DNA from: Streptomyces afghaniensis 772
GTDB taxonomy: Bacteria > Actinomycetota > Actinomycetes > Streptomycetales > Streptomycetaceae
DNA length: 42,768 nt
NCBI GenBank assembly: GCA_000415505.1
Contig: KE354159.1
Span: 1 to 42,768 of the forward strand
Direction: 5' to 3'
Under the pieces are notes generated by a model, which had not been told where the DNA came from, made no database searches, and worked only from the letters and a program-made list of their open reading frames with translations. Below, piece by piece: positions 1,861-26,482 of this stretch. The position numbers and the translations under genes were made by a program. Numbering within the stretch: the stretch's first letter is position 1; every line of letters starts with the position of its first letter.

Positions 1861-2500
1861 ACAAGTGCGTACCGTCGACGGCCGCGTGGCCGGTAGGCGC
1901 GGGCAGGCGACCCGGCAGAAGCTGCTCGACTGCCTCAGCGAGATGCTCAGCTCCTCCCCGTACCGGGACGTCAAAGTCATCGATGTCGCCCGGAAGGCGG
2001 GCACTTCGCCCGCGACCTTCTACCAGTACTTCCCGGACGTCGAGGGCGCCGTCCTGGAGATCGCCGAGCAAATGGCGACCGAGGGCGCCGCGTTGACCGA
2101 ACTCCTCAAGGGCCGCTCCTGGGCCGGCAAGGCCGGCTGGCAGACGGCGCAGGAACTCGTCGACGGGTTCCTGGAGTTCTGGCGCAAGAACGACGCGATC
2201 CTCCGGGTCGTCGATCTCGGCGCCGCCGAGGGCGACAAGCGCTTCTACAAGCTCCGGATGAAGATCCTCAACTCGGTGAACAACTCCCTCGCGGACTCCG
2301 TCGCCGAGCTCCAGGCCAAGGGCCGGGTCGACAAGGACGTGAACCCCGCGGCCGTCGCCGGTTCGCTGGTCGCGATGCTCGCGGCAGTGGCCTCCCACCA
2401 GAAGGGCTTCTCCTCCTGGGGCGTGAAGCAGGCCGAACTGAAGCCGAACCTCGCGCTGTTGGTGCACCTGGGCGTCACGGGCAGGAAGCCGACGAAGTAG
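1853..2500 (+). CDS. TetR-family transcriptional regulator
   Basis: A 215-aa repressor-type protein. The N-terminal helix-turn-helix is clear at residues 18-65 (RGQATRQKLLDCLSEML, then VARKAGTSPATFYQYFPDVE). The remaining ~150 residues form the helical ligand-binding and dimerisation domain, whose family gives no ligand. It has its own promoter region divergent from the VOC gene and ends at a strong hairpin. It is the only TetR gene in a window where ten copies of a TetR-like palindrome precede acyl-CoA catabolic genes, so it is the best local candidate for the regulator of that set. This is inference, and a regulator elsewhere in the genome is equally possible. A degenerate version of the palindrome overlaps its own start codon. 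Confidence 0.92.
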   Translation: MTGQVRTVDGRVAGRRGQATRQKLLDCLSEMLSSSPYRDVKVIDVARKAGTSPATFYQYFPDVEGAVLEIAEQMATEGAALTELLKGRSWAGKAGWQTAQELVDGFLEFWRKNDAILRVVDLGAAEGDKRFYKLRMKILNSVNNSLADSVAELQAKGRVDKDVNPAAVAGSLVAMLAAVASHQKGFSSWGVKQAELKPNLALLVHLGVTGRKPTK

Positions 2501-2548
2501 CCCGACCCGCCGGCACCGGCCCTTTTCCCGCACCCAAGTCCTGTCTGG

Positions 2549-2582
2549 CAGGCGGCGGTCCACCCGAGTGGACCGCCGCCTG
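2549..2582. terminator. Bidirectional hairpin terminator between convergent genes
   Basis: A perfect 15-bp inverted repeat (CAGGCGGCGGTCCAC, loop CCGA, then its complement) lies 48 nt after the TetR stop and 31 nt before the stop of the convergent nitroreductase-like gene. There is no long T run, as is usual in Streptomyces. The position and stem strength suit a terminator serving both genes. Confidence 0.8.
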
Positions 2583-2613
2583 TTGCGCTTTCTGCCGGCC
2601 TGCGCTGTGCGCC

Positions 2614-3084
2614 CTACCGCCGTACGATCCTGAACAAGCGGATCTCCCGCTCCACCCGGGCCTGATACGCCGCGTACGGCGGCCAGAACGCCAGCACCGC
2701 CTGCCAGGCCGCCGCCCGCTCCGCCCCCTCCAGCAGCCGGGCCGTGACCGGGATGTCCTGGCCCTTCCAGCTGACGCGGGCCTCGGGGTGCGCGAGCAGG
2801 TTGTGGCTCCAGGCGGGGTGCCCCGGTCGCCCGAAGTTGGACCCGACGAGGATCCAGCTGTCCCCGCCGTCCTCCGGCATACAGGCCAGCGGCGTACGAC
2901 GGGGCAGGCCGCTCTTCGCCCCCGTCGAGGTCAGCACCACACCCGGCAGGAGTTGGGCGCTGAGCAGCACCTTTCCGCGCGTGAGCCGGTGCACGGCCCG
3001 GTCCAGGGCCGGGAAGACGTACGGTGCCACGCGCGCGAACCCCCGCGTGGCGGACACCCTCTGCACGATCCGCACGCCTGTCAT
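2614..3084 (-). CDS. Nitroreductase-family deazaflavin (F420)-dependent oxidoreductase
   Basis: A 156-aa split-barrel protein of the Ddn/FGD-like family (DUF385). These use reduced F420 (sometimes flavin) to reduce quinones, enones or nitro compounds. Family hallmarks are visible: the GAKSGLPRRTPLACMPEDG segment at about 55-73, the GSNFGRPGHPAWSHNLLAHP motif at about 81-100, then a VSWKGQDIPVTARLLEG strand pair and a C-terminal WPPYAAYQ. Its start ATG overlaps the stop of the acyl-CoA dehydrogenase upstream by 4 bp (ATGA), so the two are translationally coupled and probably act in one pathway. Because that partner is preceded by a regulon palindrome, this gene likely belongs to the same control. 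The substrate is unknown. Confidence 0.88.
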   Translation of the reverse strand: MTGVRIVQRVSATRGFARVAPYVFPALDRAVHRLTRGKVLLSAQLLPGVVLTSTGAKSGLPRRTPLACMPEDGGDSWILVGSNFGRPGHPAWSHNLLAHPEARVSWKGQDIPVTARLLEGAERAAAWQAVLAFWPPYAAYQARVEREIRLFRIVRR

Positions 3085-4268
3085 CGGCCGGCCTCCTCGA
3101 AGACGTGCGCCACGTCGGCGGCGTGCGCCCGCAGCCGGTGCACCGGCCCGAACAGCAGCTCGTCGCCCGCGGCACGCTTGAAGTACAGGTGAACCTCGTG
3201 CTCCCAGGTGAAACCGATGCCGCCGTGCAGCTGGATCCCCTCTGCGGCGGCCGAGCGCAGGGCCTGGAGGGCCTGGGCGAGGGCGAGCCCGCCGGCCGGC
3301 TCCCCCCGGCCCTGCCGGGCGGCGGCCCAGGCCGCGTGGTACGCCGCCGAGCGGGCCGCCTGCACCTCGACGTACACATCGGCCAGCCGGTGCTTGACCG
3401 CCTGGAAGGAGCCGACCGGCCGCCCGAACTGCTCGCGCTGCCCGACGTACTCGACGGTCCGCTCCAGCACCCGGTCGGCGGCCCCCACGGCCTCGGCGGC
3501 GAGACAGGCGGCCACGGTGTCGCCGAGCCGGGCGAGGGCGGGGAGGGCGTCGGTGTCCGCGCTGCCCAGCAACTCAGCGAGTGTTTCCCGCAGTTGAAGG
3601 CGACCCTGCGGACGGGTCGCGTCCAGTGCGGTCTGCCGTACGCGGGTGAGGCCGGCCGCGTCACCGCGCACGAGGAAGAGCAGGACACGGGAGCGGGCGA
3701 ACCCGCCGGTGTGCGCGGCGACCACGAGCAGTCGGGCACTGTGTCCGTCGAGGACCTGGTCGGCCTGCCCGTACAGCCGCCAGCCGCCGTCGGCCCGCCG
3801 GGCCTGCACGCCCCCGGCCGCCGCCGCCGCCCACTCCCCGCGCGGGTCCAGGCCGGTGAGCCCGAGGGCGGTGGCGAGGGCGGGCCCCGGCACGGCGAGG
3901 GCGGCGGTGAGCCCGCCGGAGGCGATACGCGGGAGGAGGTCCGCCCGCTGGGCGTCGGTGCCGAGGGCGAGCAGCAGCGGGGCTGTGAGGGCGGCCGTGG
4001 CGAGCAGGGGCGAGGGGGCGAGGGCCCGTCCCGTCTCCTCGCAGGCCAGGGCCAGCTCGGTGACCGAGCAGCCGACACCGCCGTAGGGCTCGGGCAGGGC
4101 CAGTCCGGGCAGGCCGAGCTGTTCGGCGAGGGCGGTCCACAGGGCCGGGTCGTGTCCGGCCGGGGTGTCGACGGCGGCCCGCAGTTCCTCGGGGCCGCAC
4201 CGCTTGTGGAGCAGTTCGCGCAGGGTGCGGCGGATCTCGTCCTGTTCGGGGGTGAAGCGGGCGTCCAT
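3081..4268 (-). CDS. Acyl-CoA dehydrogenase (non-canonical, ChsE/FadE-type subunit)
   Basis: A 395-aa FAD flavoprotein of the acyl-CoA dehydrogenase family, expected to insert an alpha-beta double bond into an acyl-CoA. The N-terminal helical domain starts FTPEQDEIRRTLRELL. The C-terminal domain contains REQFGRPVGSFQAVKHRLAD (about 300) and LHGGIGFTWEHEVHLYFKRA (about 350-370). This GIGFTWE-type ending, without a C-terminal QI(Q/H)xxIIAERxLGLP motif, resembles the subunits that work as heteromers in actinobacterial steroid degradation. A partner may be one of the other dehydrogenases in this window, such as 30961-32109. It is transcribed divergently from the thiolase-like gene, with one palindrome just before its start and one before the thiolase. 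Confidence 0.92.
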   Translation of the reverse strand: MDARFTPEQDEIRRTLRELLHKRCGPEELRAAVDTPAGHDPALWTALAEQLGLPGLALPEPYGGVGCSVTELALACEETGRALAPSPLLATAALTAPLLLALGTDAQRADLLPRIASGGLTAALAVPGPALATALGLTGLDPRGEWAAAAAGGVQARRADGGWRLYGQADQVLDGHSARLLVVAAHTGGFARSRVLLFLVRGDAAGLTRVRQTALDATRPQGRLQLRETLAELLGSADTDALPALARLGDTVAACLAAEAVGAADRVLERTVEYVGQREQFGRPVGSFQAVKHRLADVYVEVQAARSAAYHAAWAAARQGRGEPAGGLALAQALQALRSAAAEGIQLHGGIGFTWEHEVHLYFKRAAGDELLFGPVHRLRAHAADVAHVFEEAGR

Positions 4269-7210: not shown

Positions 7211-7660
7211 ATGGACACGATCTGGCTCACCGGAGCGGAATGGCTGGCCGTGCTGCGGGTCGGGCTCGGGCTGTGGTGGCTGGAGAGCTGGCGGCACAAG
7301 GACCGCAAGGCCTGGTTCGAACGCGGCACCGGCATCACCTGGGCGACCGGGATAGCCGCCGAGCACCGCTGGAGCGCCGTACGGTCGGGCTTCGACACGG
7401 TCGTCGCACCCCACCCGCGGGTGATGGCGTACGTCGTCGTCTACGCGGAACTCGCGCTCGGACTGGGCCTGATCACCGGCTTCCTCACCCCGATCGCCCT
7501 GGTCGGCGGTTTTCTCCTCAACGCCCTCTACTTCACCCTCATGATCCACGAAGTCGCCGAGCAGGGGCAGAACTCGATGATGGCGCTGATGTCGGTGGTC
7601 GGGCTGTTCGGGATGTCCTGGCAGACCTGGTCGCTGGACAGCGCGCTGGGGCTGTTCTGA
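7211..7660 (+). CDS. DoxX-family integral membrane protein
   Basis: A 149-aa protein with about four hydrophobic segments (WLAVLRVGLGLWWL, VMAYVVVYAELALGLGLITG, TPIALVGGFLLNALYFTL, SMMALMSVVGLFGMSW). This pattern fits the DoxX/DoxD family, small membrane subunits linked to thiosulfate:quinone oxidoreductases and other redox complexes. ATG at 7211 is preferred over 7205 because GGGAG then sits seven bases upstream. It follows operator site 3 and its stop overlaps the DUF35 start (ATGA), so it is co-expressed with a CoA-catabolic partner. It may handle electrons or membrane delivery of a hydrophobic substrate. This is speculative. Confidence 0.82.
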   Translation: MDTIWLTGAEWLAVLRVGLGLWWLESWRHKDRKAWFERGTGITWATGIAAEHRWSAVRSGFDTVVAPHPRVMAYVVVYAELALGLGLITGFLTPIALVGGFLLNALYFTLMIHEVAEQGQNSMMALMSVVGLFGMSWQTWSLDSALGLF

Positions 7661-8091
7661 TGGCCGGGCGGTTCGACCTGCCCGAGCCGGACGCCTTCAC
7701 CCGGACCTACTGGGACGCGGCCGCCGAGGGCCGGCTGCTGATCCGCCGCTGCCGGGCCTGCGGACGGGCCCACCACTACCCGCGCGAGTTCTGTCCCCAC
7801 TGCTGGAGCGAGGACGTCGCCTGGGAGCCCGCGAGCGGCCGCGCCACCCTCTACACCTGGTCCGTCGTCCACCGCAACGACCTGCCGCCCTTCGCGGAAC
7901 GCACTCCGTACGTCGCCGCCGTGGTCGACCTCGCCGAGGGGCCGCGGATGATGACGGAGGTCGTGGGGGCGGCAGAGTCGCCGGCCGGGGAACCGCCGGC
8001 CGGGGAACTGTCCGCCGGGGCGGAACTGGAGGTCGCGTTCCGGGAGGGGATCCCGGTGTTCCGGATCGTGCGGAGCGCGATCGGCGGGTGA
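7660..8091 (+). CDS. DUF35 OB-fold protein with zinc ribbon (thiolase/aldolase partner)
   Basis: A 143-aa protein with an N-terminal rubredoxin-like zinc ribbon (C31-x2-C34 and C45-x2-C48 in CRACGRAHHYPREFCPHC) followed by an OB fold (ATLYTWSVVHRN, PYVAAVVDLAEGPRMMTEVV). DUF35 proteins act as acyl-CoA-binding partners that activate Ltp2-like aldolases, thiolases or FadE-type enzymes. It is coupled to the DoxX gene by an ATGA overlap. The likely functional partner is the thiolase-like protein at 4378, which has the same operator. The PAGEPPAGELSAGAE segment near 108-122 is a low-complexity linker. Confidence 0.9.
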   Translation: MAGRFDLPEPDAFTRTYWDAAAEGRLLIRRCRACGRAHHYPREFCPHCWSEDVAWEPASGRATLYTWSVVHRNDLPPFAERTPYVAAVVDLAEGPRMMTEVVGAAESPAGEPPAGELSAGAELEVAFREGIPVFRIVRSAIGG

Positions 8092-8122
8092 ACGGCGCCG
8101 CCCCACGCGCTTGAATGGCCCC

Positions 8123-8764
8123 ATGGCCCCCATACGCGACCGGTCCCTGACCGGCCCCCTCCCGGAAATCCACGGCCACGGCCTCCACCTGCGCCCCTGG
8201 GACGCCGCGTCCGCCTCCGACGTCGAGACGTGGCTGCGCGGCATGAACGACCCGGAGTTCCGGCGCTGGAACACCCCGCTGAGGCTGGTCACGGACCGGA
8301 CGAGCGCCCTGGAGTCGCTGCTCGCACGGGCCCAGAGCGCGGCGGAGGGCACGTCCATGTCGTTCCGGGTCGCGGACGCCCGCAGCGGCGCGGCACTGGG
8401 CCACATCGGCGTCAACGAGATCAAGTACCACCTGAAGGTCGCCCGCGTCGGCTACTGGGTGCTCCCCGAGGCCCGCGGCCAGGGCGTCGCCACCCGGGCC
8501 CTCCTGCTCGCCGCCCACTGGGCCCTCACCGAACTCGGCCTGCACCGGCTGGAACTGGACCACGCCGTCGGCCACGACGCCTCGTGCCGGATCGCCGGGC
8601 GGTGCGGGTTCGCGTACGAGGGGACCCTGCGCGGGGCGATCTTCGAAAAGGACCGGCACGACGCGTTCCGGGACGCCCACCTGCACGCACGGCTGGCGAC
8701 GGATCCCGCACCGGACGCGGTTCGGGAACTGGGCGTTGATCAGGACCCGGCCGCGGATCGGTAA
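8123..8764 (+). CDS. GNAT-family N-acetyltransferase (RimJ/RimL-like)
   Basis: A 213-aa acetyl-CoA-dependent transferase. It contains the LHLRPWDAASASDVETWLRG opening typical of RimJ-type enzymes. The acetyl-CoA pyrophosphate loop is PEARGQGVATRALLL (about 119-133), followed by HRLELDHAVGHDASCRIAGRCGFAYEGTLRG. The likely substrate is an N-terminal amine of a protein or a small molecule, which cannot be told apart here. ATG at 8123 is chosen because the conserved domain begins soon after it. It has its own upstream spacing and no palindrome, so it is not part of the catabolic regulon. Confidence 0.9.
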   Translation: MAPIRDRSLTGPLPEIHGHGLHLRPWDAASASDVETWLRGMNDPEFRRWNTPLRLVTDRTSALESLLARAQSAAEGTSMSFRVADARSGAALGHIGVNEIKYHLKVARVGYWVLPEARGQGVATRALLLAAHWALTELGLHRLELDHAVGHDASCRIAGRCGFAYEGTLRGAIFEKDRHDAFRDAHLHARLATDPAPDAVRELGVDQDPAADR

Positions 8765-20174: not shown

Positions 20175-20901
20175 GGCAAACTCCTCGGAAGGTCGAGCGT
20201 GAACGAACCTGCGACGTCACGACGACCACGTCACCGAGAACCATGCCGAGCGTCATCAACGGACCTTCCGAGAGGCGAGTCGGGTGATCCCAGGATAGGC
20301 CCAGCCCCTGAACCCACCCACCGATACCACCGCTCGGCCCACCCACCGATCGCCGCTTGACCCACCCGGCGTGCATGCGAGACGCAACCGCGCACACCCC
20401 ATCGTCGAGCGACCACTCAGCCGACCCACGAGGCCCGACGGCCCCTGGCCACCCGCCTCTCCGGGCCGCCCGCTCGCTTCTTCCACGTGCTGGAACGGCC
20501 TGGATCAAGGGTGGCTCGCAGGGCCATCGCCGAAGGCGACGCGAAGCGCCCTTGAGGCAGGCCGTGGAAGCACGACACTGACCAGGAAGCCGGCGGCTTC
20601 GACGGTTCCGTAGAAACGTACGGGACGAGAAATCCCCTCCACGTCCTGGCAGAAAGATGCCACGTGGCTTCGACAGCGTGAACTGGCCCGCATGTCAGTG
20701 GGTTTCGGCTCCACTTGCCGACCGGTGTTTTTCAGCTGCGAGTCGACGGACGGAAGCCGCGACCCGGATCCTGGCCCGCCTGGCCCGCTCTCGGCCAGGC
20801 AGGATCCGAGCCGCCGCCAATATCCCTGAGCTCCCTTGCCCCGTACTGCGCAGCCAGTCCCGAGCCTCAACGAACAGGTGCCTGATCGCTACGCTCACGG
20901 C
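20175..20901. other. 727-bp stretch without a supportable gene
   Basis: No frame here has a recognisable domain or convincing start. It contains an 11-bp inverted repeat, CTCGGAAGGTC at 20184-20194 and its complement at 20262-20272, with a 67-bp spacer, just upstream of the methyltransferase start. Near 20523-20535, TCGCC-GAA-GGCGA is a short hairpin. The base composition is slightly lower in GC than the neighbouring genes. It may be the promoter region of the divergent genes plus degraded DNA. Confidence 0.5.
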
Positions 20902-21228
20902 ATGACTGAGTTTGTACAGGTGTCGACCGCCACGCCGGAACGTCAGCAGGCTGTAGAACTCGCCAAGGGAGCAGTCCAGGGGCGGCTTGCCGCCGGTTCG
21001 CAGATCATCGGCCCGGTGGGGTCGGTGTTCTGGCACCTGGGCGAGTTCGGTGAAGGGGAGGAGTGGCGGCTGCTGGTCACCACGACGCGCGAGCGCTACC
21101 CGGAGCTGGAGAAGTATCTGCTCGAGAACCACCCGTGGGACAATCCCGAGCTGCTCGCGGTGCCGATCGCCAACGGAGCACCCCGGTGTCTCCAGTGGAT
21201 CAAGGACAGCGTCGCCCCGGCGAACTAG
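20902..21228 (+). CDS. cutA: CutA-like divalent-cation tolerance protein
   Basis: A 108-aa protein of the CutA1 family: small trimeric proteins with a ferredoxin-like fold, named for copper tolerance in Escherichia coli but with an uncertain true role (PII-like signalling or metal binding). The helix ERQQAVELAKGAVQGRLAAG, the strand SVFWHLGEFGEGEEWRLLVT, the TTRERYPELEKYLLENHPWD segment and ELLAVPIANGAPRCLQWI all match the family. The start ATG at 20902 fits the usual length. Its stop codon and that of the convergent XRE gene share the same CTAG, leaving no room for a terminator. Confidence 0.9.
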   Translation: MTEFVQVSTATPERQQAVELAKGAVQGRLAAGSQIIGPVGSVFWHLGEFGEGEEWRLLVTTTRERYPELEKYLLENHPWDNPELLAVPIANGAPRCLQWIKDSVAPAN

Positions 21229-22532
21229 GCCGTGGCCCTCTTCAGCACGTCCTGAACGACGCCCAAACCCTGGTGCTGCCGCAACTGGTCCAGCACCGGG
21301 GCAAGGCGCTGCCGGGGACGCACGGAAGCGACTCCGATGGACAGGTCCAGGGCGCGGTTCGTCACGGCCGCGGCCTCCTCCACCTCGCCGGCTGCCAGGT
21401 AGGCGTCGGCCAGCCATGACAGGTACAGGGCCTTGTCTCGAGCGTGGTGGTCGTCGTACCGGTCGAGCGCCCGGGTGAGCACCGGTACAGCCCGCAGAGG
21501 ACGGCGAAGCTCTGTCCAGCAGCGGCCGGTCATGATGTCCAGCTCGGTCTCGTCGACCCAGGCCGCCCAGTCCCGCTCAGGCTCTCCGTTCTGCCGCTCG
21601 TCCAGGGCATACCTTGCGGCGTCCAAAGCCTGTTCGACACGGTGTGGCTGGCCCGCGATGGCACAGGCCCAGGCCATCCGCTCGTGGAGCAGAGCGCGCA
21701 CGCTGGACGGAGTGGTGGGGGTGATGGTGGAGCAGCTGGTTGCGGCCATCTCGACCGCCACGTTCCGGTCAGCGGCCTGATAAGCGAGGAACGCGTACGC
21801 GTTGGCGAGGAGATCGGCGTCGCCTGCTTCACGGGCGGCGTGCTGACTCTCCTCGTACAGGCTCTCGGCCTGAGTCTGCTGTCCCCCGTCGAAGGCTGCC
21901 CAACCGGCCTGTTGGGCCTGCTCGGCGAGCAGTGAGACGGTGCCACGGCGAGACTCCGGGGTGAAGACGGAGTCCCGCAGGAGGGCCTTGGTGGCCTGGT
22001 ACTCGCCCAGGTAGACGCGGTAGGTGTCGCCACCGCCCAGCGTTTCGTCGAGACGCCGCAGCCGGGCCGCGCGGCGCCGCATCCGTACGACGTCCTCCAC
22101 GGAGACGTGCTTGGGCTCCGGCGGTCTCGTCAGGGCGGGGAAAGCAGCGGCCAGGCCCGTGGAGGTGGCGGCTTGGAGGACGGTTCTGCGGCGCAAGCTC
22201 GGTGGTCCCATCTGTGGGTCGTTCGCGTGCGCGGGAAGCTCGCTGCTCTCCCACGGGCGGGGAGCAAGGCCGACCATGTGCCCAGGGATACGCAACGCGT
22301 CCGCGATCTGCAAGATCTTGTCGAATGTGGTGATCGTGCCCTGTCCCTTGGCGAGCGTGCCGACCCGATCCGGCTTGATGTCGCACTCAGCGGCGATGCG
22401 GGAGTAGCTGATCCCCGCATGGCTTTTCGCCCGCCGGAACACCGTCCCGAAATCGTGTGTCTCCAGCGCTCGGCGCATCTCCTCGTCGTTGAGGAGCTCC
22501 CGGGGCAGCGCGGTCGGTGGCTCTTGAATCAT
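21225..22532 (-). CDS. XRE-family helix-turn-helix regulator with TPR-like C-terminal domain
   Basis: A 435-aa regulator. The helix-turn-helix lies at about residues 28-80 (FGTVFRRAKSHAGISYSRIA, DRVGTLAKGQGTITTFDKIL). A TAT-like stretch SLRRRTVLQAATSTGLAAAF follows, and then a long helical TPR-like repeat region (AFDGGQQTQAESLYEESQHA, ALDRYDDHHARDKALYLSWL) that probably binds a ligand or peptide signal. Streptomyces proteins of this layout control secondary metabolism and development. It is divergent from the RiPP accessory genes, with a perfect 15-bp palindrome and two hairpins between them, so it is the likely cluster regulator. ATG 22532 is the conserved start. Confidence 0.88.
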   Translation of the reverse strand: MIQEPPTALPRELLNDEEMRRALETHDFGTVFRRAKSHAGISYSRIAAECDIKPDRVGTLAKGQGTITTFDKILQIADALRIPGHMVGLAPRPWESSELPAHANDPQMGPPSLRRRTVLQAATSTGLAAAFPALTRPPEPKHVSVEDVVRMRRRAARLRRLDETLGGGDTYRVYLGEYQATKALLRDSVFTPESRRGTVSLLAEQAQQAGWAAFDGGQQTQAESLYEESQHAAREAGDADLLANAYAFLAYQAADRNVAVEMAATSCSTITPTTPSSVRALLHERMAWACAIAGQPHRVEQALDAARYALDERQNGEPERDWAAWVDETELDIMTGRCWTELRRPLRAVPVLTRALDRYDDHHARDKALYLSWLADAYLAAGEVEEAAAVTNRALDLSIGVASVRPRQRLAPVLDQLRQHQGLGVVQDVLKRATA

Positions 22533-22582
22533 GCGTGCACTTCCTGCTCGCCTGAGTCTGCGGCATGTTTCCTGGGGGCCTG

Positions 22583-22597
22583 TACCCATCATGGGTA
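22583..22597. promoter_or_regulatory. Perfect 15-bp palindrome in the divergent promoter region
   Basis: TACCCAT-C-ATGGGTA lies 51 bp from the XRE start and 117 bp from the accessory gene start. It is the natural candidate operator for the XRE regulator or for a shared repressor of both promoters. Confidence 0.6.
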
Positions 22598-22617
22598 TAC
22601 CGCGCCACGGGAGGTGC

Positions 22618-22653
22618 GCTCTTCGCGAGAAATCCATTCTGGACGCGAAGAGC
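22618..22653 (+). promoter_or_regulatory. Leader hairpin 1 ahead of the RiPP cluster
   Basis: Perfect 10-bp arms GCTCTTCGCG (22618-22627) and CGCGAAGAGC (22644-22653) enclose a 16-nt loop. This lies in the probable leader of the accessory gene at 22714 and could act as an attenuator or RNA-stability element. Confidence 0.5.
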
Positions 22654-22686
22654 CCCGGCGGCCACCGTCCCGTTGGACTGCCGGGG
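22653..22686 (+). promoter_or_regulatory. Leader hairpin 2, sharing a base with hairpin 1
   Basis: CCCCGGC (22653-22659) and GCCGGGG (22680-22686) form a 7-bp stem that begins on the last base of hairpin 1. The two stems sit in tandem just before the GAGGAG ribosome site of the gene at 22714. Confidence 0.4.
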
Positions 22687-22713
22687 CATGGACGACCGTG
22701 AGGAGTCGCCACC

Positions 22714-23270
22714 ATGCGCGAGTCTCAGCAACTCGCCCCCGGTTCTGATGACTTGGAGGAACATCCAGCGCCTGCCGCTGCGGCGGACCATGAGCGTGCG
22801 GTCTTGGTCGAGGACTGGTTACTGGCCGCAGCTCCCGACGTCCAACAGGCACGGTGGGAATGGAGCGAGGGCGGGTTGACCCTCCTTCGCTGCGGCGAGT
22901 TGCTCACCGCCATCCGCTTGCCCGGGACCCTCGTCCGAACTGCTGCCGCGAGCAGCGACCCGACCGAGGTGGGCACCTATCTGGCCGAGGTCATCGACGG
23001 CGGCCCCGTCATCGCCTCGCGCGGCCGCTACTACCCCCTGGTGCTCCCGAGCGCGGGCGTGGCCTGGCAGCACCCGGACGCCGAGTGTCTGGCATGGGGC
23101 ACTTGGCTGGGAGTTCCGCCCGTCACAGAGACAAACTGCCACAACCCCATGGCGTACTGGATGTCCCGATGCGAAGGCCGGGCGAGCTGTGTGACGCCGA
23201 GGCCGTCTTGCATCTCGTTCGGCTCGCCCAGCATCGGCATTCAGGGCAGGAGACCGGCGATGGGAATTAG
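22714..23270 (+). pseudogene. RiPP-cluster accessory protein of unknown function, one frameshift
   Basis: Repaired, this is a protein of about 186 aa. It is acidic at the start (SDDLEEHPAPAAAADHERAV) and then forms an alpha/beta domain (GGLTLLRCGELLTAIRLPGT, GTYLAEVIDGGPVIASRGRY, AWQHPDAECLAWGTWLGVPP). The frame shifts near 23160, where a G seems missing from tactggatgtcc. The resumed frame reads VPMRRPGELCDAEAVLHLVR and stops at 23270. Without the shift the reading runs Cys/Ser/Arg-rich and into the next gene, which is implausible. GAGGAG lies eight bases before ATG 22714. I know this protein type only as a companion of DUF6415 genes in Streptomyces RiPP loci. Confidence 0.65.
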
Positions 23271-23634
23271 CCATGCGTCGCCGTTCAACGCAGACGAAAT
23301 CCGACGACGATGCGAGGAAGCGCTGTGGGGGCCCAGTGGTCCGCTAGCTGAACAGCGGGCCCTTCTCCAGGAGATGGAGGGCTATGTACGGCTTCTGGCG
23401 CCCAAGCTCGCAAAGCTCATGCCGCGGATGCCGGACAACATGCAGGGCACAGCGCGCATCGTCCTGAGGTATTCGGACGAACTCCTCGGCGATGAGGCGC
23501 CGTCGACTGATCTGGCGACGCGGTTGCACGACGCCGCCGTGAACGCGCGAGCACTGCTAGGCCTGCTTGAAAGGCCCGGTGAGCTCGCGCCCGAAACTGA
23601 GGGATCGGACCAAAACCCGGCACGCAGCACATAG
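23260..23634 (+). CDS. DUF6415-like accessory protein of natural-product loci
   Basis: A 124-aa, mostly helical protein (NADEIRRRCEEALWG, AEQRALLQEMEGYVRLLAPK, LATRLHDAAVNARALLGLLE). It resembles DUF6415, a family found with XRE regulators and RiPP or other natural-product genes in Streptomyces and of unknown function. ATG 23260 overlaps the stop region of the repaired upstream gene by 11 bp, supporting co-translation and the frameshift repair. There is no signal peptide or catalytic motif. It might be a small regulatory or adaptor protein. Confidence 0.7.
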   Translation: MGISHASPFNADEIRRRCEEALWGPSGPLAEQRALLQEMEGYVRLLAPKLAKLMPRMPDNMQGTARIVLRYSDELLGDEAPSTDLATRLHDAAVNARALLGLLERPGELAPETEGSDQNPARST

Positions 23635-23738
23635 CGCAGCCTCACTGACCCCGGCGCCGGGCCCACGTCCCCCTGTCGGTCTCGGCGCCCCATCACCGCG
23701 ACTAGGCGGATTCGACCACTGCGACACAGAGGAGAAGC

Positions 23739-24035
23739 ATGTTCGTTCACTCCGACCGTCTGCCCACGAGCCCGGCGATCCCGCAGGGACTCAGCACACC
23801 CCGCCCGTGGGGCATCGGCCGCATGGCGCCCTACCCCACCATCGCCCCCGACTACGCCCGCGCCGAGCTGGACCCCGCCACCCAGACCGCCGTGTTCTAC
23901 GACGGGGCCGGCCAGGTCATGGAGATGGGCAAGCACAACACGTCCACCGGCACCAGCCCGTCGACCGGCACCAGCCCGGACGGTGGCAACCAGGGCGCGA
24001 CGGACACCGACACGAGCGCCGACAGCGACCAGTGA
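23739..24035 (+). CDS. ATP-grasp-modified RiPP precursor (graspetide family)
   Basis: A 98-aa precursor. The leader includes the family motif RPWGIGRMAPYPTIAP (residues 22-37) and ELDPATQTAVFYDGAGQVMEMGKH (43-66), which in TIGR04186-type precursors directs the ATP-grasp ligase. The core, from about residue 67, has two tandem STGTSP hexads (69-74, 75-80), then DGG (81-83) and an Asp/Thr/Ser-rich tail to residue 98. Thr/Ser hydroxyls and Asp side chains are the expected crosslink partners, and D81-G82 is a favoured aspartimide site for the methyltransferase. GGAG precedes the ATG. Its stop overlaps the ligase start (GTGA). Confidence 0.9.
   Translation: MFVHSDRLPTSPAIPQGLSTPRPWGIGRMAPYPTIAPDYARAELDPATQTAVFYDGAGQVMEMGKHNTSTGTSPSTGTSPDGGNQGATDTDTSADSDQ
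23943..23978 (+). repeat. 18-bp tandem duplication in the RiPP core
   Basis: Codons for STGTSP repeat back to back with 17 of 18 bases identical (tcc versus tcg at the first Ser). The duplication doubles the potential hydroxyl donors of the core. Confidence 0.9.
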
Positions 24036-24979
24036 GTGATCCGCGTCCGGTGTTGGTCGTCACCAGCCTGCACGACCCCACCTCCGACGTGGTGATCAGC
24101 GAGCTGCACGACCGGGACATCCCGGTCGTGCGGCTCGACTCGGGGGACTTCCCCGCATCACTGTCGGTGGAGGCAGAGATCACCGAACACGGCCTGAGAG
24201 GCCGCCTCCTCACCCCCAGCCGCACCGCGGACCTGGCCCACATCCGCGCCCTCTACTACCGTCGGCCGACCGGATTCAGCTTTCCGCACCTCGACGAGCA
24301 GGACGCCCGGTTCGCCGTCACCCAGGCCCGGTACGGGCTCGGGGGAGTCCTGGCCTCGCTGCCGGGTTGTCTCTACGTCAACCACCCGCACCGCATCGGG
24401 GACGCCGAGTTCAAACCGGCCGGGCTGACTGCGGCCGCGGCCGCGGGGTTCCTGGTCCCGCCCACCCTCATCACCTCCAGCCCCGACGCTGCCCGGGAGT
24501 TCATCAAGCAGCACGGCTCGGTCATCTACAAGCCGCTGCACAACCCGGTCTATCGAGTCGACGGCGTCTCGTCCGTCGTCAAGGTCGCCGAGGTGTCCGC
24601 AACGGACATCGATGACGACGTAGCGGGCACGGCGCACCTCTTCCAGGAGCGGATCCCCAAGGTCGCCGACGTCCGGGTGACCGTCATCGGCGCAGACGTG
24701 TTCTGCGTCCGTATCGACTCCGACCTCCTCGACTGGCGCACCGACTACAGCCGGCTGACCTACACCCCTGTGGAAGCACCACCGGGGATCCGGCCGGCGC
24801 TCCACCGCTACATGAACCGCTTCCGCCTGGTCTTCGGAGCTTTCGACTTCTGCGTGGGCGAGGACGGCCGATGGTGGTTCCTGGAATGCAACCCGTCCGG
24901 CCAGTGGTACTGGCTGGAAACCGAAACGGGTCTGCCCATGCGCGCAGCCCTGGCGACACTTCTGGAGAGGAAGACGTGA
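24032..24979 (+). CDS. ATP-grasp ribosomal peptide maturase (graspetide ligase)
   Basis: A 315-aa ATP-grasp ligase of the SAV_5884 type (TIGR04187). It activates Asp/Glu carboxylates of the precursor as acyl-phosphates and joins them to Thr/Ser hydroxyls or Lys amines, giving ester or amide macrocycles. The ATP-binding core has VIYKPL with K167, the central strand VADVRVTVIGADVFCVRIDS (about 211-230), and the metal-binding end FLECNPSGQWYW with E285 and N287. The N-terminal region (residues 1-120) is the leader-peptide recognition part. It starts with GTG overlapping the precursor stop and ends overlapping the methyltransferase start, so all three are translationally coupled. Confidence 0.93.
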   Translation: MSDPRPVLVVTSLHDPTSDVVISELHDRDIPVVRLDSGDFPASLSVEAEITEHGLRGRLLTPSRTADLAHIRALYYRRPTGFSFPHLDEQDARFAVTQARYGLGGVLASLPGCLYVNHPHRIGDAEFKPAGLTAAAAAGFLVPPTLITSSPDAAREFIKQHGSVIYKPLHNPVYRVDGVSSVVKVAEVSATDIDDDVAGTAHLFQERIPKVADVRVTVIGADVFCVRIDSDLLDWRTDYSRLTYTPVEAPPGIRPALHRYMNRFRLVFGAFDFCVGEDGRWWFLECNPSGQWYWLETETGLPMRAALATLLERKT

Positions 24980-26094
24980 CCGATCACGCACAGCTCCACC
25001 AGCAGCTCCTCGACAGTTTGACGGCGACCGGCTGCCTGCGCACGGAGTCCTGGAAGCGCGCCGCCGCGGCAGTCCCCCGGCACGAATTCCTGCGCGGCGG
25101 TTTCTTCCGGCGCGCGATCGGCACGGACTTCACCGCGTGGGAGCCCGTACGGGAAGGCGACGCAGGCTGGCTGGAGGGCTGCTACGCGGACGAGACGCTG
25201 GTGACCCAGATCGCCGGCACGATCGTGCCGGAAGACATCCGCGGCCGGATCACACGCGAACCGACCAGCTCCAGCACATTGCCCTCTCTCGTGCTGCGCA
25301 TGCTGGAGGACCTCCAGGTCGAGGACGGGCACAAGGTGCTGGAGATCGGCACCGGTACCGGTTACTCGACCGCCGTGCTCTGCGCCCGGCTCGGCGCAGG
25401 GAACGTCACCTCGATCGAGTACGACCCGCACGTGGCGGCGCGGGCCCGGACAGCGCTCGGCCACCTCGGGACATACCCCACACTCGTCACCGGCGACGGC
25501 CTCCTCGGCCACGGCGCGGGGGCGCCGTACGACAGGATCATCGCCACATGCGGCGTACGCACCGTGCCCGAGGCATGGATCGAACAGACCCGGCCCGGTG
25601 GCCTGATCCTGGTGACCGTCGGCGGTTGGCTCGGCTCCTCGGAGCTCGCGCGCCTGACGGTCCACGAGGACGGTACGGCGTCCGGCCCGCTGCTGGGCGG
25701 CGGGGTGAACTTCATGCTCGCGCGGCCGGAGCTGCCGCCGCCGCTCGGCCTGCTCCCCAACCTCGACGAGGGCAAAGAGCGGGAGACCGTCACCGGGGCC
25801 GACATGCTGAACAACTGGACGAGCCGCTTCGTCGTGCAGCTCGCCGTACCTGGTGCCCAGCGCCTGAACCTGGAACGGGACGGGCACACCGAGGACGTGC
25901 TCGTCGAAACTGCGTCCGGCTCATGGGCCGCCGTATATGAGGACGGCGGTCAGTGGCTCGTCCGCCAAGGCGGGCCAGACTCTCTCTGGGACGCCGTGGA
26001 GGAGCTGTTCGGCCGGTGGCGCGCCGCCGGTGCACCACCGCTGGAGCAGTTCACCGTCCATGTCACCCCGGAGGGCCAGACGATCCGCTGGTGA
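24976..26094 (+). CDS. PIMT-like O-methyltransferase of the ATP-grasp RiPP system
   Basis: A 372-aa SAM enzyme, protein-L-isoaspartate methyltransferase-like over its first ~220 residues (VPRHEF at 34-39, SAM motif VLEIGTGTGYSTAVL at 121-135, DRIIATCGVRTVPEAW). It carries a ~150-aa C-terminal extension, the TIGR04188 arrangement. In fuscimiditide-type loci such an enzyme methylates a core Asp, which then cyclises to aspartimide. It starts with GTG 24976, overlapping the ligase stop (GTGA). The extension is beta-rich (HTEDVLVETASGSWAAVYED) and probably grips the crosslinked peptide. The role is inferred from family and order. Confidence 0.92.
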   Translation: MTDHAQLHQQLLDSLTATGCLRTESWKRAAAAVPRHEFLRGGFFRRAIGTDFTAWEPVREGDAGWLEGCYADETLVTQIAGTIVPEDIRGRITREPTSSSTLPSLVLRMLEDLQVEDGHKVLEIGTGTGYSTAVLCARLGAGNVTSIEYDPHVAARARTALGHLGTYPTLVTGDGLLGHGAGAPYDRIIATCGVRTVPEAWIEQTRPGGLILVTVGGWLGSSELARLTVHEDGTASGPLLGGGVNFMLARPELPPPLGLLPNLDEGKERETVTGADMLNNWTSRFVVQLAVPGAQRLNLERDGHTEDVLVETASGSWAAVYEDGGQWLVRQGGPDSLWDAVEELFGRWRAAGAPPLEQFTVHVTPEGQTIRW

Positions 26095-26116
26095 TCCGTC
26101 CTGCCGGTCCCGCCCT

Positions 26117-26482
26117 TCACCGGTCGGGCGCGACGAACTCGGGCTGGTCGAGCAGGCGCAGCCAGCTTCCGTCAGGCTGGCGCCGGACCACCTGCGCCCG
26201 GGCGCCGGCCCCGTCCTTCGGCGGGGTCGAGGTGAGGGCGATGTCGCCGCTGACCAGAGTCGGCAGCGGTTGTTCCGGCTCGAAGCGGGGGCGGCCCGCC
26301 AGCACCTTTTCCCACAGCACACGGATCGCCTCCCGGCCCACCGTCTGCTCGCCGGGCGGGTAGGCCAGCACCGCGTCCTCTTCGTAAAGCGCGGCGACCC
26401 CGGCCGCGTCACCGGCGTTGGAGCGCTCGACGAACAAGCGGGTGATGTCTTCGGGTCGCATGGCCTTCTCGTACTCCGGCAC
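26117..26482 (-). CDS. SnoaL-like/DUF4440 nuclear-transport-factor-2-fold protein
   Basis: A 121-aa single-domain NTF2-fold protein. The helix ITRLFVERSNAGDAAGVAAL, the strand YEEDAVLAYPPGEQTVGREA and the final WLRLLDQPEFVAP are typical of stand-alone SnoaL-like domains, which act as cyclases, isomerases or ligand-binding proteins. No catalytic pair is certain. It is divergent from the LysR gene with a 105-bp region between, so LysR may control it. The start ATG at 26482 lies in the usual domain position. Confidence 0.85.
   Translation of the reverse strand: MPEYEKAMRPEDITRLFVERSNAGDAAGVAALYEEDAVLAYPPGEQTVGREAIRVLWEKVLAGRPRFEPEQPLPTLVSGDIALTSTPPKDGAGARAQVVRRQPDGSWLRLLDQPEFVAPDR

Follow-up and report, generated by a model that had tools for sequence, protein, structure and literature searches.

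A predicted graspimiditide cluster in Streptomyces afghaniensis 772

The window analyzed here is a stretch of 42,768 nucleotides of contig KE354159.1 from Streptomyces afghaniensis 772, whose genome is a draft assembly (9.85 Mb in 1724 contigs). An earlier note, made from the letters of the window, had described in it a "graspetide/imiditide-type" cluster for a ribosomally synthesized and post-translationally modified peptide. The cluster comprises a precursor gene, an ATP-grasp ligase gene and a gene for a methyltransferase resembling protein isoaspartyl methyltransferase (PIMT), which are coupled by two GTGA overlaps, one between precursor and ligase (24032-24035) and one between ligase and methyltransferase (24976-24979). 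Its features are as follows.

23730-23734, + strand: AGGAG, ribosome-binding site of the precursor gene
23739-24035, + strand: precursor peptide, 98 amino acids (aa), ATG at 23739 to TGA at 24035 (TIGR04186, PF14408)
23805-23837, + strand: leader motif PWGIGRMAPYP, residues 23-33, common to relatives and presumed to be recognized by the ligase
23922-23936, + strand: EMGKH junction, residues 62-66
23934-24032, + strand: core, residues 66-98, HNTSTGTSPSTGTSPDGGNQGATDTDTSADSDQ, with the residue pairs predicted below
24032-24979, + strand: ATP-grasp graspetide ligase, 315 aa, GTG start, TGA stop at 24979 (TIGR04187)
24976-26094, + strand: PIMT-like aspartyl methyltransferase with a C-terminal domain, 372 aa, GTG to TGA (TIGR04188)

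All three proteins scored above the curated NCBIfam cut-offs: the precursor reached 85.4 bits against TIGR04186 (cut-off 25), the ligase 429 bits against TIGR04187 GRASP_SAV_5884 (cut-off 350) and the methyltransferase 453 bits against TIGR04188 (cut-off 380). Pfam agreed on all three (Actino_peptide, MvdD pre-ATP-grasp and PCMT), the precursor matching PF14408 Actino_peptide with 66.3 bits (cut-off 25). The methyltransferase carries GTGTG and, close to its C-terminal end, WRAAGAP, which corresponds to WXXXGXP. Predicted folds were aligned for the window and for 14 of 16 loci of relatives for each enzyme, leaving out L036 and L037 for the methyltransferase and L036 and L042 for the ligase, where the frames are absent or broken. 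The match of the methyltransferase with 1dl5 runs to the end of both chains, and the ligase has the ATP-grasp fold seen in graspetide ligases of solved structure. MdnB, MdnC, CdnC, AMdnB, PsnB and PruB share this fold with the window ligase, and use other precursors and ring patterns. These data bear out the earlier note on the precursor with its PWG...RMAPYP and EMGKH motifs, the SAV_5884-type ligase, the C-terminally extended methyltransferase and the GTGA joints; its likening of the cluster to those of fuscimiditide and amycolimiditide likewise agrees with the family models, motifs, predicted folds and conservation.

Group 13 graspetides almost always co-occur with a PIMT (PMC13097080), and TIGR04188 proteins are reported 717 times near ATP-grasp genes vs 433 times near C39 peptidase/ABC transporter genes (PMC8939145). 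The window has the features of this group, namely a TIGR04186/PF14408 precursor, an adjoining graspetide ligase and an adjoining PIMT homologue with an extra domain; the arms and loop of the group are present as a sequence pattern only, T70/72/76/78 facing D97/95/91/89. Judged by its sequence, the cluster is thus an SsfA-type group 13 graspetide (graspimiditide) cluster with an intact precursor-ligase-methyltransferase unit. The imiditide half of the earlier designation was not retained: imiditides proper, or pamtides, likewise use a PIMT homologue with an extra C-terminal domain to modify one Asp, but they are aspartimide-only two-gene systems whose substrates are linear or zinc-folded peptides, whereas a ligase is present here at 24032-24979. 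Of the "ester or amide" links that had been predicted, amides were rejected because the core, with six Ser, eight Thr and four Asp in its C-terminal arm, contains no Lys, and esters are therefore expected.

Relationship to characterized systems

The graspimiditides described as characterized in PMC13001092 are fuscimiditide, amycolimiditide, albusimiditide and SsfA(BM), with two to five esters and a methylated loop Asp; three surveys cited there predicted 1326, 962 and 1432 such clusters. The nearest characterized system is SsfA/SsfB/SsfM of Streptomyces sp. F-3, which shares with the window the gene order, the leader junction, Asp81-Gly82 and four C-terminal Asp. According to the text of PMC10787088, SsfA is cut by GluC and trypsin at the junction equivalent to EMGKH, SsfA(B) has a mass 90 Da below that of SsfA and can take up as many as five methanols, SsfM requires the fully cyclized peptide, and Asp81 of SsfA(BM) as isolated is a mixture of isoAsp and Asp rather than a stable aspartimide. 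The five carboxylates were placed there within the last 12 residues. As this segment has four Asp but lacks Glu, the C-terminal carboxylate was suggested as the fifth; the ring connectivity could not be determined by the authors (PMC10787088).

The 97-aa precursor of S. thermovulgaris (locus L037) agrees with each SsfA coordinate given in that text: Glu62 (GluC), Lys65 (trypsin), Gly77-Thr78, Asp81-Gly82-Asn83, Ser89, and Asp88/90/94/96 within a C-terminal arm that lacks Glu in its last 12 residues. We infer from these coordinates that L037 encodes the SsfA orthologue, the SsfA sequence not being printed in the text (PMC10787088). As an observation that sits poorly with this assignment, the L037 methyltransferase frame (7250-8368) stops resembling the family beyond about residue 233, an apparent frameshift. 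The window precursor (98 aa) is 72% identical to that of L037 (97 aa), and the main difference between the cores is the loop, which has 10 residues in the window, including Asp81-Gly82, vs 9 in L037.

Two other systems resemble the window in part. Amycolimiditide of Amycolatopsis cihanbeyliensis also has nested esters, a 10-aa loop with an aspartimide and a precursor-ligase-PIMT cluster; by description rather than by core alignment, it differs from a five-ester model in having four links. Fuscimiditide of Thermobifida fusca has a 10-aa loop, nested Thr-Asp esters and a loop aspartimide as well, but only two links, Thr7-Asp18 and Thr3-Asp22 (PMC12291112).

Arrangement of the cores of related precursors

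Among 208 loci scanned for a precursor with the motif pattern, 55 gave none; 154 precursor hits were obtained including the window, of which one lacked the anchor, and the remaining 153 were reduced to 118 distinct cores anchored at the His that follows the leader. The loci come partly from the same genomes, and duplicates were merged by sequence. Selecting cores solely by Pro at core position 9 gave 59 of the 118 (P9 cores), 58 of them distinct and intact; within the genomes sampled, these 58 represent five genera of a single family. Thr occupies positions 3, 7, 11 and 13 in all 59, the intact cores have Thr (44) or Ser (14) at position 5, and Asp is found at -2, -4, -8 and -10, counted from the C-terminus, in 58/58. 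The stretch between Thr13 and Asp-10 has 8, 9, 10, 11, 12, 15 or 16 residues; the loop thus comes in seven lengths between arms that are constant on either side.

One register pairs all four Asp with Thr/Ser, as 13/-10, 11/-8, 7/-4 and 5/-2, and in it Thr3 faces a position immediately beyond the C-terminus. In the window the predicted pairs would be Thr78-Asp89, Thr76-Asp91, Thr72-Asp95 and Thr70-Asp97. With Thr scored as 1 and Ser as 0.6, the register that puts Thr3 one place past the last residue was picked by 54 of the 59 P9 cores and another by five. In 58/59 a single residue, always Gln, follows the last Asp and closes the chain; among P9 cores absent from the set in which the pattern was first noticed, 43/44 end in DQ. 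The sole P9 core without this end is that of L198, which has an apparent frameshift inside its Gly-rich loop.

The 59 non-P9 cores differ in this respect: none ends in Gln, and in 53 an Asp mirrors position 3, with 0 (44 cores), 2 (1), 4 (7) or 8 (1) residues beyond it, the remaining six having Arg at position 3 and lying outside the position-3 rule. Thr-only scoring again gave 53 with an acid opposite position 3, with tails of 0 (36), 4 (14) and 2, 6 or 8 (one each), the different split being due to ties. Thus the tail varies where Thr3 has an Asp partner and is fixed where it has none. Together with the five SsfA esters, the fixed tail points to an ester between Thr3 and the C-terminal carboxylate, which in the window would join Thr68 to Gln98. 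The window core has both features by which we define a side-to-end subgroup, Thr3 and a chain end one residue past the last Asp.

Averaged over the full set of cores, the best number of mirror Thr-acid pairs was 3.75. Shuffled cores gave 2.78 (the largest of 60 means being 2.90), and shuffles that keep the odd/even alternation gave 3.20 (largest 3.31). In the sister group of 44 cores that end at the Asp (D-end cores), T5 occurs with D-3 in 5/7 T5 cores vs 0/37 others, and K/R5 with E-3 in 10/15 vs 3/29 others; both covariations agree with the mirror register in that group. In this group, to which L123, L023 and L122 belong, positions 5 and -3 thus vary together, as if an ester had been replaced by a salt bridge or an amide.

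Several results weigh against such a layout or limit it. When the window core alone is shuffled, four mirror pairs arise in 6.5% of shuffles, and in 56% when parity is kept; an argument for the pairing from this core by itself was rejected, not being significant at that 56%. Mutual information in the 44 D-end cores placed no mirror pair among the top three and three among the top 15. On a 51-row ligase tree the 5/-3 covariation is not significant, with too few independent changes: for each of the two combinations there were four independent pairs on well-supported branches, of which on average 2.6 and 1.9 agreed in direction and 0.0 ran opposite, and for T5 with E or D at -3 the corresponding means were 2.4 and 0.3. 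Moreover, the cores share ancestry, so 58/59 does not stand for 58 independent observations, and more weight should go to the seven loop lengths.

Proposed maturation and alternatives

Genes, families, folds and conservation come directly from the analysis, and the chemistry proposed on this basis is inferred. The ligase would bind the PWG...RMAPYP leader, phosphorylate core carboxylates with ATP and esterify them with Thr hydroxyls to give a nested hairpin with the esters Thr78-Asp89, Thr76-Asp91, Thr72-Asp95 and Thr70-Asp97. A fifth ester, joining the Thr68 hydroxyl to the C-terminal carboxylate of Gln98, is probable. The methyltransferase would then recognize the finished hairpin and methylate Asp81 in the 10-residue loop; by analogy with SsfM, AmdM and ThfM, the methyl ester would collapse onto Gly82 to an aspartimide, which would be hydrolyzed mainly to isoaspartate. 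Leader removal and export would require further genes; according to PMC12291112, no native protease is known for graspimiditides. By analogy with the characterized members, omega-ester crosslinks and the methylation of Asp81 with passage through aspartimide to isoAsp are very likely for the window peptide. Leaving the fifth ester aside, we hold the family membership and this order of steps with high confidence.

The fifth ester is a more evenly balanced matter. For the whole Pro9 clade we propose hairpins with five esters, SsfA included, the one at the base linking Thr3 to the C-terminal carboxylate of the invariant Gln, in which Thr/Ser5, Thr7, Thr11 and Thr13 would be joined to Asp -2, -4, -8 and -10 and the ligase would systematically activate the peptide C-terminus besides Asp side chains; on the sequence comparison, this reading as a whole has about an even chance of being right. 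Alternatively, only the four Thr-Asp pairs form, with neither Thr68 nor the C-terminus linked, as in amycolimiditide with its four nested links (PMC12291112, PMC13001092). The C-terminal arm does hold only four Asp, and a side-to-end ester has been postulated only once in the literature examined; beyond the suggestion for SsfA in PMC10787088, our search for a side-to-end link or a C-terminal Gln yielded nothing from which support was drawn. Four esters would, however, leave the 90 Da loss and the five methanols of SsfA, whose coordinates fit L037 (PMC10787088), to be accounted for, as well as the chain end fixed in 58/59 P9 cores and Thr68, kept in 59/59 although it has no Asp partner in the mirror register. 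Thr68 facing the C-terminal carboxylate would explain how SsfA can have five esters with four Asp. We give the four-ester structure less than an even chance.

A fifth hydroxyl elsewhere, such as that of Ser69, or links that are not nested appear unlikely. The core offers six Ser and eight Thr, Ser69 is invariant (58/58 P9 cores), and the experiments on SsfA could not determine its connectivity (PMC10787088); yet Thr68, 72, 76 and 78 are invariant in P9 cores while positions 73, 75 and 79 vary, and both fuscimiditide and amycolimiditide are nested. Even less probable, in our estimate, is a decaying or silent cluster that makes no product. The adjoining gene A is frame-disrupted, and a scan for sigma-70-type promoter patterns, poorly suited to Streptomyces, found 0 in 23400-26300 where 0.1 was expected. 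On the other hand, all three genes are open, the nonsynonymous rate (dN) is lower than the synonymous rate (dS) against four relatives where compared, and decayed-looking relatives are different: in L181 the loop Asp is lost and the ligase frame measures 215 aa, and L036 has a 147-aa ligase frame and no methyltransferase match.

Loop aspartate among relatives

In the loops of the 58 intact P9 cores, Asp-Gly is found in 52, Asp-Arg in three, Asp-Ser in one and Asn-Gly in one, and one has no Asp. Asn-Gly can give the same succinimide spontaneously. The locus with this loop (L059/L210) has both an open ligase (316 aa) and an open methyltransferase (374 aa). The core without loop Asp is that of L181. 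A further short ligase frame, of 152 aa, occurs in L042; like those of L181 and L036, it is apparently broken, through either decay or draft-sequence errors.

Distribution and conservation

A TIGR04186 match was found in 287/392 Streptomyces genomes sampled and in 0/14 control genomes, and in 34/246 genomes of a class-wide sample that included members of the genus; with the window precursor as query, 134/394 genomes sampled from the family matched. In S. swartbergensis (L033) the cluster lies between the same flanking stretches, its 33-residue core being identical with one nucleotide difference, and 295/315 ligase and 337/372 methyltransferase residues are identical to those of the window. The dN/dS values against L033 are 0.035/0.238 for the ligase and 0.048/0.161 for the methyltransferase, and against L034 0.126/0.639 and 0.139/0.501, respectively. 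The earlier suggestion that the product may be new therefore holds for a new member of the family and not for a new kind of peptide, the core being identical in S. swartbergensis and very near the SsfA type.

The S. afghaniensis genome contains a second graspetide-like locus (L209; G000 contig C489, about 2000-3188, minus strand) with a TIGR04186 match of 41.9 bits, a ligase 33-35% identical and a precursor ending in TTTSTAGSKTHFDD; no methyltransferase homologue was matched within the 8 kb taken. Streptomyces sp. XY006 has two P9-type clusters (L034 and L040) with differing loops.

Upstream neighborhood

Three further genes lie upstream of the precursor.

21225-22532, - strand: divergent helix-turn-helix (HTH) and tetratricopeptide repeat regulator of the NsdA family (NF053720, 240 bits, cut-off 75, on a longer 496-aa frame)
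22714-23270, + strand: gene A, uncharacterized, frame-disrupted near 23160, with relatives near related clusters
23260-23634, + strand: protein B, uncharacterized, 124 aa, no Pfam match at E<=0.01

The HTH regulator had been noticed before, in a stretch given as beginning at 22533; on the minus strand, the regulator starts at 22532, not 22533. Copies near other clusters are 73% identical in L036 and 62% in L043, with weaker ones (25-32%) near many others, and control of the cluster by this NsdA-family regulator is plausible. Gene A follows its L036 counterpart in one frame to about 23160; from there, by eye, the similarity switches frame and runs on to the stop codon at 23268-23270, an apparent frameshift that may be real or a draft-assembly error; the "unknown protein" of the earlier note thus exists as a gene but not as an intact one. 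Its relatives occur near clusters in L036, L039, L041, L055, L061, L063, L079, L151, L186, L198 and L212, some of these 11 being the same loci under other ids. Protein B had been called DUF6415-like, which its lack of any Pfam family at E<=0.01 does not support; apart from the window's own copies, the loci searched hold a homologue only in L055 (45%), and protein B is probably not an essential cluster part.

The S. swartbergensis contig matches both flanks of the block 20279-23730 but has nothing corresponding to the block itself, which contains a CutA-like gene, the regulator and genes A and B; the part 20889-22649 of this block matches L036. The regulator and gene B were accordingly rejected as core parts of the cluster, although the regulator has close relatives beside clusters in L036 and L043. 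On these comparisons the upstream neighborhood is variable.

Significance

The cluster is one more predicted graspimiditide cluster, belonging to an already described peptide family rather than to a new kind of system. Its value lies in the comparative layout, which bears on the ring connectivity of SsfA-type peptides that the SsfA authors left undecided. Tying aspartimide-containing peptides of this kind to a function is named as the bigger challenge in a 2026 review (PMC13001092), and natural variants, such as the Asn-Gly loop or the lost loop Asp beside a broken ligase, could help to ask what the loop modification serves. If the proposed base closure is true, a graspetide ligase would use the peptide C-terminus as an acyl donor and form a side-to-end ester.

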